A stretch of DNA of 20,821 bases from a virus. A model generated the notes under the pieces. That model had not been told where the DNA came from, did no database searches, and saw nothing but the letters and a program-made list of their open reading frames with translations. The position numbers and the translations under genes are program-made. Numbering within the stretch: position 1 is the first letter of the stretch; each line of letters opens with the position of its first letter. Location: positions 1 to 20,821 of IMG/VR virus record IMGVR_UViG_3300013010_000099. One strand, 5' to 3'. Below, one piece after another: positions 6,289 through 12,072 of this stretch.

Positions 6289-6921
6289 CTATGCGTTAAA
6301 GCTGTAAACACGAACAGTTCCAGCAGTATAAGTTGATGCCATATTTGATGTTAATTGAAATCTATCTGGCCTTGCAGTGGTCGCAGATAGGTAACTCCCC
6401 GCAGTATAATATCCTCCTGCTTCAAAATATGAGTTAGGGCTGCCACCTGTCGTAGCCCACTGCATACCCCATGACCAAACCGCAGTGGAATATTGCCCTG
6501 ATGGTAAGCCTTGAAGTATTAAACTGGAATAACTAGCATATGCTGTATTTGTGTTTTGAGTACTTTCTTTATAATCCATTGCATCTTTGCTGCCCCCGTC
6601 ATACCGCTTATAATGCCCATTGGATGACCAATATGAACTGCCCCCATCTGTAGACAATCTAATCTTTTGATTACGGTAGCCAGTATTTCCATAAACTATA
6701 CCTTCAAGTATAATCATGCACATAGAGCCTGTTGCAGGGATAACCAGATTATTTACTGTTGTTGAACCCGAAGAAATAGTTGTAACACTTTCTTCAGACC
6801 AAATACCCCCACCGACACCCCCCGCACTAATAGCAGCAGCCGTAGTAGCATCAATGCTAGCCACATTGGTCAGCGCCCTTGCGTTGCTGATAACCTCTGT
6901 TCCTGATACTTGAATCGCCAT
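6289..6921 (-). CDS. Tail fibre-like protein
   Basis: The N-terminus of this 210-aa protein (AIQVSGTEVISNARALTNVASIDATTAAAI) matches the opening segment shared by many cyanophage and roseophage fibre proteins. The remainder is Gly/Ser/Tyr-rich with aromatic strand repeats (YWSSNGHYKRYDGG, then YSTAVWSWGMQW, then YFEAGGYYTAGSY), as in small distal adhesin domains. No catalytic motif is seen. It lies 18 bases after the S74 fibre gene and has a good AAAGGA ribosome binding site. It is probably a second, short receptor-binding protein or a fibre-tip component. Confidence 0.75.
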   Translation of the reverse strand: MAIQVSGTEVISNARALTNVASIDATTAAAISAGGVGGGIWSEESVTTISSGSTTVNNLVIPATGSMCMIILEGIVYGNTGYRNQKIRLSTDGGSSYWSSNGHYKRYDGGSKDAMDYKESTQNTNTAYASYSSLILQGLPSGQYSTAVWSWGMQWATTGGSPNSYFEAGGYYTAGSYLSATTARPDRFQLTSNMASTYTAGTVRVYSFNA

Positions 6922-10035: not shown

Positions 10036-10650
10036 CTAGCTTAACCATCCAAATATCTTGGTGGTTTCCTCTGTTCTGTGGTCAAGGCCATGATATCCGC
10101 CATTAACACGCTTAGTGATACGCTTAATAGTATCCTCGTTTATGCCTTCATCCGCGATCTGGAATAATTTATTGCGCTCAAAGAACCATAAAGCGCCATC
10201 AAAAGCAAGCTCGCCTTCAAGTAGCGATGGATCTGTCAATACATCTGGCCTGTTCATATCGTGGGCAAATGCTTTGTAGTTGTCATATCCAGTCAATTGA
10301 AGAAAACTTCTGCCTATGTAGAGGCTGGCTTTTTCTGGCGTATCATTCCCCATGCGATTTAAATATGTTTTCTCTGCCAATGCTTTTGGATTACGGGCAA
10401 ATGGTGCAGCGGCCTCAAGCGATTTAAACCTATTAGGCCAGATCTGACACATTCTTTCCGCTGAGTAGTTCAAGTTTTCACGGGTCAGTTTAAAACCACC
10501 ACTCTCGTGCGATGCTTGACCCAAGAGATGGGCCGCGCGTTCTGGTGCAAGATCGTAATGCTTGGCAATTGCACGGGCAGTATTTGGCCCAAAATCACCA
10601 TCAGCGGAAACACCGCACTTCTCTTGCAGGATCTTCATAGCTTCGCTCAT
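10036..10650 (-). CDS. GH19 chitinase-like endolysin
   Basis: The catalytic domain of this 204-aa protein is GH19 chitinase-like, a fold used by many phage endolysins to cut peptidoglycan glycan strands. The likely acid is Glu49 in SHESGGF, with Glu58 in the following ENLNYSAE as the probable second carboxylate. SFLQLTGYDNY (115-125) and VNGGYHGLDHR (182-192) are further family motifs. The first about 30 residues (KCGVSADGDFGPNTARAI) look like a shortened peptidoglycan-binding repeat. There is no signal peptide, so export depends on the holin encoded immediately upstream, with a four-base ATGA overlap between the two genes. Confidence 0.9.
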   Translation of the reverse strand: MSEAMKILQEKCGVSADGDFGPNTARAIAKHYDLAPERAAHLLGQASHESGGFKLTRENLNYSAERMCQIWPNRFKSLEAAAPFARNPKALAEKTYLNRMGNDTPEKASLYIGRSFLQLTGYDNYKAFAHDMNRPDVLTDPSLLEGELAFDGALWFFERNKLFQIADEGINEDTIKRITKRVNGGYHGLDHRTEETTKIFGWLS

Positions 10651-11048
10651 TTTGTAACCTTTTGTATTTTCTCGTATGACCTCAAACCGCCAAGACCAAG
10701 CATTCCTAATAGGATTGGCATAAGATCCGCTGTCCCAATTTCGGGAAGTGCTGGCAGATCAACGCCGAATACTAATAAAAAGAAGACTAGAAAAGGCTGC
10801 AAGATAAACGACCAAAATAATGCTAATCCACATATCCATCCTATCGCAGGTCGCCACCCGCCTTTAAAGAGTGAGCCGCTGGAGGCTTCAGCCTTGTTGA
10901 CTTCAAGCTGTGCCAGCGCTTGTTCCGAAGCTATTTTTTCAGACATAGTTGCAAGTTCGTGACCTAATTTTGCAGCTAAATCTTTATCAGGTATAAATTT
11001 TGATGCCAGCGCAGTGGCTGGGCCAATTAAACTGTCGATCAATCCCAT
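10647..11048 (-). CDS. 3TM holin (gene-transfer-agent type)
   Basis: The C-terminal two thirds of this 133-aa protein match the three-TM holin family known from alphaproteobacterial gene transfer agents (Pfam GTA_holin_3TM). Key features are GGWRPAIGWICGLAL (63-77), a long hydrophobic segment SFILQPFLVFFLLVFGV, and a terminal segment LLGMLGLGGLRSYEK. Residues 1-55 are amphipathic helix. The protein would form the membrane lesion that releases the endolysin encoded next, whose ATG overlaps this stop. The start overlaps the EF-hand gene's stop by one base (TAATG), which indicates coupled translation. Confidence 0.87.
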   Translation of the reverse strand: MGLIDSLIGPATALASKFIPDKDLAAKLGHELATMSEKIASEQALAQLEVNKAEASSGSLFKGGWRPAIGWICGLALFWSFILQPFLVFFLLVFGVDLPALPEIGTADLMPILLGMLGLGGLRSYEKIQKVTK

Positions 11049-11386
11049 TATTTATTCTCCTTGCTTTTTGACCAAGCCGTGGCACCCATGAAACCCACTA
11101 CAATGCCCGTCTGGGCCACTAGAAACGTGTTTAGGAAGGCAGATGCCATATCAACGCGATCAAGGGCCACAAGGGGGCTTAGAAGCGCTGCAATGGCCAC
11201 TATCGTTGACCACATTGCGACCCATGCCATTAAGCGTTGCTGATCCTGCATTTTGTCGTTGTTTTCGATCTGGATCATGCGCTCAGATCGTGCAAGCTCA
11301 TCATCGGTCACAACACCATCGCCATCGGCATCAAATTGATTGAACTTTGAATCTTCTTGAAGTTTCTTCATGCTTTGTGTGTCCAT
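11048..11386 (-). CDS. EF-hand membrane protein of the lysis region
   Basis: This 112-aa protein has one canonical EF-hand loop at residues 19-30 (DADGDGVVTDDE). All expected ligand positions are filled (D19, D21, D23, T27, E30), with Gly24 and a hydrophobic residue at position 8. Two probable transmembrane segments follow, about 48-72 and 85-105, leaving the loop on a short soluble N-terminal arm. Calcium binding is expected from the motif but not shown. The gene sits directly before the holin, overlapping it by one base, and overlaps the upstream gene by 19 bases. A role as a calcium-responsive holin partner or antiholin is possible but inferred. ATG codons exist at residues 1 and 6; the first keeps the overlap with the upstream gene. 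Confidence 0.8.
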   Translation of the reverse strand: MDTQSMKKLQEDSKFNQFDADGDGVVTDDELARSERMIQIENNDKMQDQQRLMAWVAMWSTIVAIAALLSPLVALDRVDMASAFLNTFLVAQTGIVVGFMGATAWSKSKENK

Positions 11387-11835
11387 GCAAACCAGAATAA
11401 AAACAAAGCCAATCCCATTGCAGTTGAAAAGAACAAAACAAACAAAGATATGCTGGTGATCTTTTCAATCATGGCGGCCCTGCGATGTTCGTGATCGGCG
11501 CGTTCCTTGCGAACCTTGGCCTCAATGGACAGAAATTCTTGCCATTTATCTTGGCCTGCCGAATATTGGATATATTGGCGCAGCTCATTGCGCATATGCT
11601 CTACTTGCTGCTTTGCAGCGTAGATTTCGATAGCTTCAGACTGAGCAGATCCGCTTATTGATTTATACCACGGTGGGTTGGACGCTTTGTTGGCAATGAA
11701 ATCCAAATCTGCGATTGCAGTAGCCCAAGATCCTAATTGTTGGCCGACCGAACTTATATCTTTGCCAACTTCGACAGCGGATTTTATCGCTTTAAATGCG
11801 GTTGTTGCCGCCGCTATGAGGGTAAATGGGTCGAT
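11368..11835 (-). CDS. Helical, C-terminally membrane-anchored phage protein with probable non-AUG start
   Basis: The open frame runs from directly after the TGA at 11845-11847 to a TGA at 11368. Its upstream part encodes a family-like N-terminus (DPFTLIAAATTAFKAIK, then VGKDISSVGQQLG), but the first ordinary start codon is the TTG at 11706. That would discard this segment and has no ribosome binding site nearby. A GAGG followed by seven bases leads to an ATC at 11833-11835, so AUC is proposed as the start, giving about 155 aa. The protein is helical with a charged coiled coil (about residues 70-125) and one C-terminal transmembrane segment (SISLFVLFFSTAMGLALFLF). Its function is unknown; lysis or membrane accessory by location. 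Translational readthrough of the TGA is an alternative. Confidence 0.6.
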   Translation of the reverse strand: MDPFTLIAAATTAFKAIKSAVEVGKDISSVGQQLGSWATAIADLDFIANKASNPPWYKSISGSAQSEAIEIYAAKQQVEHMRNELRQYIQYSAGQDKWQEFLSIEAKVRKERADHEHRRAAMIEKITSISLFVLFFSTAMGLALFLFWFAWTHKA

Positions 11836-11844
11836 GGTGTAACC

Positions 11845-12072
11845 TCAACTGCGTAAAGCTTGCTCAATATTGTCAAGCTTGGTGAAAACGTGCTTAAAGC
11901 TATCCCGCATTTCCTTAAACTCGCGGTCATGTGCTTCTTTAGTCAATGCTAGTTGTGCCTGCAAAACGGCAATATGTGTCTCATGTGATTGCTGTTTTAA
12001 AAACATATATGAAACCAGTGCTACTGTGGGTGCTACAATCCACTTCAAAAGCATATCAAGAAATTCCATCAT
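11845..12072 (-). CDS. Small TM/coiled-coil membrane protein of the lysis region
   Basis: The 75-aa product has an N-terminal transmembrane segment (about residues 8-26, WIVAPTVALVSYMFL). A polar heptad-like helix follows (HIAVLQAQLALTKEAHDREFKEM), ending in FTKLDNIEQALRS. The pattern TM-HDxxIAVLxxQL...KLDNIEQ is one I recall in podovirus late regions. It would sit in the inner membrane with a coiled coil on one side. It could be an inner-membrane spanin-like component or a holin regulator, but no partner lipoprotein is seen. The start is six bases after the adaptor stop, and the downstream gene continues in the same frame after the TGA. Confidence 0.68.
   Translation of the reverse strand: MMEFLDMLLKWIVAPTVALVSYMFLKQQSHETHIAVLQAQLALTKEAHDREFKEMRDSFKHVFTKLDNIEQALRS

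Follow-up and report, generated by a model that had tools for sequence, protein, structure and literature searches.

The 20,821-nucleotide stretch of viral DNA analyzed here (positions 1 to 20,821 of IMGVR_UViG_3300013010_000099; hereafter the window) carries on its minus strand, at 11368..11835, a gene whose predicted product, 155 residues long and all-helical, has a transmembrane helix at its C-terminus and resembles the family phrog_32327. The gene is recognized by its open frame, its PHROG match, purifying selection and a predicted structural model. Its frame is open over 158 codons, from the TGA stop of the upstream gene (11845..11847, minus strand) to its own stop at 11370-11368, and the earliest in-frame ATG, GTG or TTG is a TTG at 11706. 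At 11833..11835 (minus strand) the frame contains an AUC codon, preceded at a seven-base spacing by a Shine-Dalgarno (SD)-like GAGG (11843..11846, minus strand). The last two bases of the TGA are the first two of this GAGG, nine bases separate the TGA from the AUC, and the minus strand thus reads TTACGCAGT TGA GGTTACACC ATC GAC CCA TTT ACC CTC ATA. Among 25 other window genes whose start codons were checked, 24 begin with ATG and one with GTG. A first-pass annotation had described this gene as lacking a usable AUG, GUG or UUG start, and every coordinate it gave proved correct. The comparisons below make the AUC at 11833-11835 the only plausible start, a conclusion that we regard as well supported.

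A scan of viral contigs for the close relatives of the gene (the window clade) gave eleven loci at 77-100% identity, one of which encodes a protein identical to that of the window. In the ten homologues with a readable start (L002-L010 and L012), the same codon is always ATC or ATA (five distinct proteins each), Asp-Pro-Phe-Thr always follows directly, and GGAG or GAGG lies seven bases 5′ of the start. A usable standard start was sought in these ten homologues and none was found; three contain an in-frame GTG 13 codons further 5′, which lies inside the upstream gene and is isolated and unconserved. Because independent contigs have ATC or ATA at this position, a read error that turned ATG into ATC, as the first-pass annotation had allowed, is rejected. 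The conserved N-terminus that it had proposed is borne out by the ratio of non-synonymous to synonymous polymorphism (pN/pS), which in the window clade is 0.162 for codons 1-28, 5′ of any standard start, and 0.141 for codons 29-150. Among the homologues, none was observed with a start where the window has the TTG, and no member of the window clade has ATG at the AUC codon. In the remaining close homologue, L011 (at about 3000), part of the first codons is missing and the frame is lost shortly after the start, so that the gene has either decayed or been misassembled.

More distant relatives, among them Roseobacter CRP phages and HMO-2011, have ATG or GTG exactly at the window's AUC codon, giving Met-Asp-Pro, or ATG at the preceding (-1) codon, giving Met-Ile-Asp-Pro from ATG-ATT or ATG-ATA. 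The window AUC is therefore aligned with the initiator or the second codon of other members, and the standard starts found exactly there support its use as a start. The Asp-Pro-Phe-Thr N-terminus is likewise shared with isolates that have ATG at the start codon. None of the isolates found carries an AUA, AUC or AUU (AUH) start; the AUH members are metagenomic. A degenerate pattern with ATH and GGAG built in was used only to find subfamilies, and frequencies in the sister subfamilies A6 and A7 were taken from scans with internal or post-start peptides that left the start codon free; every count refers to distinct proteins rather than to independent events. A6 starts with ATT in 53 of 56 proteins and with GTG in the other three, and A7 has AUH in 36 of 49 (ATA 24, ATC 6, ATT 6) and ATG in 13. 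Overall, 99 of 245 proteins have an AUH start, all 99 belonging to the window clade, A6 or A7, and in 94 of them the stretch from the in-frame stop to the start codon contains no ATG, GTG or TTG. Wherever the -1 codon is not itself a standard start, the codon aligned with the window AUC (codon 0) is ATT (59), ATG (48), GTG (31), ATA (29) or ATC (11), which accounts for all 178 such proteins; TTG, CTG or any other codon never occurs there. AUA, AUC, AUU, AUG and GUG are thus exchanged within one alignment column, immediately 5′ of Asp-Pro. In A6, as in the window clade, the codons upstream of the first standard start are constrained (pN/pS 0.07).

A tree of 145 of these proteins, built with the start codon excluded and weakly supported in its deep branches, implies that the start class changed at least 13 times and the codon 27 times; for comparison, a study of closely related genomes counted one AUG-to-AUU switch among 61,358 ancestral AUG starts (PMC5622118). 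Alignment of profiles with hhalign gave 95.7% for A9 with A7 (E 1e-8), 92% for A6 with A7 (E 7e-7) and 76% for A9 with A6 (E 2e-5), so kinship of the window, A6 and A7 subfamilies is likely but distant. The A6 and A7 profiles gave no match to phrog_32327, and a search of bacterial genomes for relatives of A2 and A6 found none. The family has probably inherited its non-AUG start, which is present in three subfamilies. The A4 subfamily (L089-L168) and isolates CRP-5, CRP-6 and CRP-7 start with ATG-ATT or ATG-ATA; the A4 scan peptide contained Met, which biases the all-ATG outcome, and that outcome was not used as evidence. Loss of the ATG from such a start would leave an AUH start and may be one route by which these starts arose. 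A related protein in L446 and L455 (IDPFTAIAAATSAFKTVQKF...) has a TTG-ATA start behind GAGG, a weak start in the same place.

We also compared SD pairing and the distance to the upstream stop. In the window clade, A6 and A7, the upstream open reading frame (ORF) mostly ends between -10 and +4 relative to the start, within a few bases of it, as expected of coupled genes. Within A7, all 13 AUG genes lack an SD (dG 0.1 to 2.6) and overlap the upstream stop as TAATG, and all 36 AUH genes show SD pairing (-3.0 to -8.4). Such an inverse relation would be expected if balancing selection acted on a limited output. It is only suggestive, since the relation reduces to three independent pairs on supported branches (3/3 in one direction, sign p 0.25).

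These observations provide the basis for a model that we consider probable, in which a conserved weak AUH start, coupled to the upstream stop, caps production of a tail-anchored membrane protein encoded in the lysis region. The gene combines the marks of a throttled start: no usable ATG, GTG or TTG, a properly spaced SD, a conserved coding region and conservation of the start among relatives. An ordinary initiator tRNA would read the AUC, and the protein would begin fMet-Asp-Pro. Initiation factor 3 (IF3) accepts only matched pairs at the first and second codon bases and disfavours weak pairs at the third (PMC10158994). Of the three bases of an AUH codon, the last is mismatched with the initiator anticodon and the other two are paired; given discrimination by IF3, initiation would be weak. 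In the window clade and A7 it would be aided by the SD, and in all three subfamilies by translational coupling through the nearby upstream stop, and this would tie output of the membrane protein to translation of the preceding gene. The position and conservation of the start, the coding N-terminus and the nearby upstream stop can be read from the aligned sequences themselves; from them we infer low output, dependence on IF3, re-initiation and a part in lysis.

Several points weigh against this model. In addition to the small number of independent comparisons in A7, 34 of the 53 A6 AUU genes have no simple SD motif; with about two thirds of them lacking one, the A6 start may rely on coupling alone. 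The A3 subfamily has AUG or GUG starts, a strong SD (median -11.4) and mostly an 18-28-base gap to the upstream stop, so low output is evidently not needed in every phage. Phage genes are packed tightly, which makes a nearby upstream stop weak evidence for coupling. Together, the close stops, the several A6 genes without an SD and the repeated exchange of AUA, AUC, AUU and AUG fit a second explanation, in which AUH is indeed the start, its weakness has no function, coupling renders the codon nearly neutral and AUH is kept by drift. We consider this unlikely, though it deserves to be taken seriously: the inverse pattern in A7 points to output being balanced, and the other weak codons (TTG, CTG, ACG) never appear at the start codon.

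The remaining explanations concern where translation begins. Initiation one codon upstream, at ACC in the window, would have a parallel in the A4 subfamily and in several isolates, where an ATG at -1 precedes ATT or ATA. However, AUH genes show no conservation of the -1 codon (AAA, ATC, TAA, GAA, CAA, GAC, TTT, ACC and others; ACC, GAC, AAC or CTG in the window clade), it is the stop codon TAA in 12 of them, and the SD spacing would be only four bases; on comparison with the relatives this start is rejected as very improbable. The first-pass annotation had offered an AUC start or readthrough of the TGA to give a fusion with the upstream protein as its two options, and the first of these stands. 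Readthrough or a frameshift is suggested by the window alone, where the TGA is in frame and no stop follows it before the gene. Because the upstream genes differ between relatives, a fusion is untenable: they end in different frames, with TAA, TAG and TGA all occurring. In L004 the upstream gene terminates with TAA in a different frame from the AUH gene. L005 has a homologue (74 residues) of the window's upstream protein that does not adjoin the AUH gene, another ORF intervening. Moreover, AUH alternates with AUG and GUG at the start codon in relatives, and several distant relatives found with the degenerate pattern have an in-frame stop directly before the start (TAA-ATT, TAA-ATA and TGA-ATT in sister subfamilies). 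The fusion is therefore rejected as highly implausible. The intervening L005 ORF (2841-3000, ending ...DKTLFVER) is small and absent from the window. Finally, an internal start at TTG 11706, with the upstream codons untranslated, has in its favor only that it is the first standard start in frame, and is rejected with near certainty, since that TTG lacks an SD, as the first-pass annotation had stated, purifying selection acts on codons 1-28 as strongly as on the remainder, and conservation of the Asp-Pro-Phe-Thr N-terminus extends to isolates with ATG at the position of the AUC.

The proposed AUC throttle resembles several known systems. In phage lambda, two AUG codons and RNA structure set the level of the S holin and antiholin; the likeness lies in start-site choice setting the level of a lysis membrane protein, and no homology is claimed. 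In Escherichia coli, an AUU start limits output of pcnB. Like the AUH family, E. coli infC and pcnB have an AUU, AUC or AUA start that is conserved between species and limits initiation, which in the phage family is a prediction; unlike it, they are cellular genes of known function, whereas the phage gene has no assigned function, and infC is autoregulated because it encodes IF3 itself. The infC start is AUU in E. coli and AUC in Streptomyces, and its output is kept low; so is that of Streptomyces sigR, which has an IF3-repressed GTC start (PMC5472188). The latter shares with the AUH family a rare start codon, which in sigR keeps a regulator low, and a conserved strong SD, but the codon is GTC rather than AUH, and the partner gene and mechanism of sigR are known. 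Staphylococcus aureus ccpN (AUA) and cvfC1 (AUU) yield about 10-30% of AUG output in reporters (PMC13009471). These two genes and S. aureus infC (AUA) combine, as here, a conserved AUA or AUU start with a strong SD; their starts were mapped by ribosome profiling, whereas that of the AUH family was assigned by comparison, and the AUH family, unlike them, extends over several subfamilies with exchange for AUG and GUG. A search of the open-access literature found no precedent for an AUH start in a phage.

The match of the window protein to phrog_32327, a family whose function is unassigned, spans the protein (E 3.4e-16; residues 4-148 align with profile positions 2-142 of 152). As the match begins at profile position 2, the usual Met-Ile start of that family is absent here. 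An AlphaFold model of moderate confidence (mean pLDDT 70) is all-helical and has a long helix at the C-terminus, and a fold search with it returned only uncharacterized phage proteins, without a significant PDB match; no holin profile in Pfam or PHROG matched the protein either. The C-terminal hydrophobic segment, which scores 2.2-2.3 in most of the window clade, makes it likely that the protein is tail-anchored in the membrane with its bulk in the cytoplasm. Its upstream neighbor (11845..12072, minus strand) encodes 75 residues with an N-terminal membrane helix and a coiled coil. Downstream on the same strand lie a gene for a protein with an EF-hand-like motif and two membrane segments (11048..11386; Pfam matches below cut-off, including its EF-hand, were disregarded), a holin with three membrane segments (GTA_holin_3TM, 10647..11048; phrog_3427, PF11351) and an endolysin (10036..10650; phrog_181, E 5.8e-44). 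The label of lysis region given in the first-pass annotation is therefore apt. The EF-hand-like gene probably starts not at 11386 but at an ATG at 11371-11369 that overlaps the stop of the AUH gene as ATGA; its relative in L005 begins MKKLQDDSK at a -4 overlap. The neighbors of the AUH gene suggest that the window protein takes part in lysis or helps to time it. Members of the A3 subfamily, by contrast, have the gene beside terminase genes.

A further feature was found in A7. In 47 of 48 readable loci the membrane segment is encoded in the -1 frame, after a conserved run of nine A (ten in one case) and a G, at about codon 125 (L329-L408; for example, L062 around 6570-6600). The run occurs in both AUH and AUG members, and in L345 ten A put the membrane segment in frame with the start; the window clade has no A9 run. 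The arrangement looks like programmed -1 frameshifting or polymerase slippage that would yield anchored and unanchored forms. We tentatively suggest that the AUH throttle is sensitive to IF3 and to upstream translation and is balanced against the SD, and that slippage in A7 adds a second control on the membrane-anchored share, two recoding steps thus being stacked; this extension may well not hold.

To our knowledge, conserved AUA, AUC or AUU starts have been recognized in no more than a handful of bacterial genes. Gene finders cannot call such starts, so whole phage genes are missed or truncated. The roughly one hundred natural AUH starts described here have AUG and GUG counterparts at the same codon, and so offer a ready means of testing the trade-off among start codon, SD and coupling. 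Judging from their sequences, these phages seem to have relied for a long time on a deliberately weak start for a small membrane protein of the lysis region, and the family suggests that phages use the start codon as a dial for dangerous membrane proteins.
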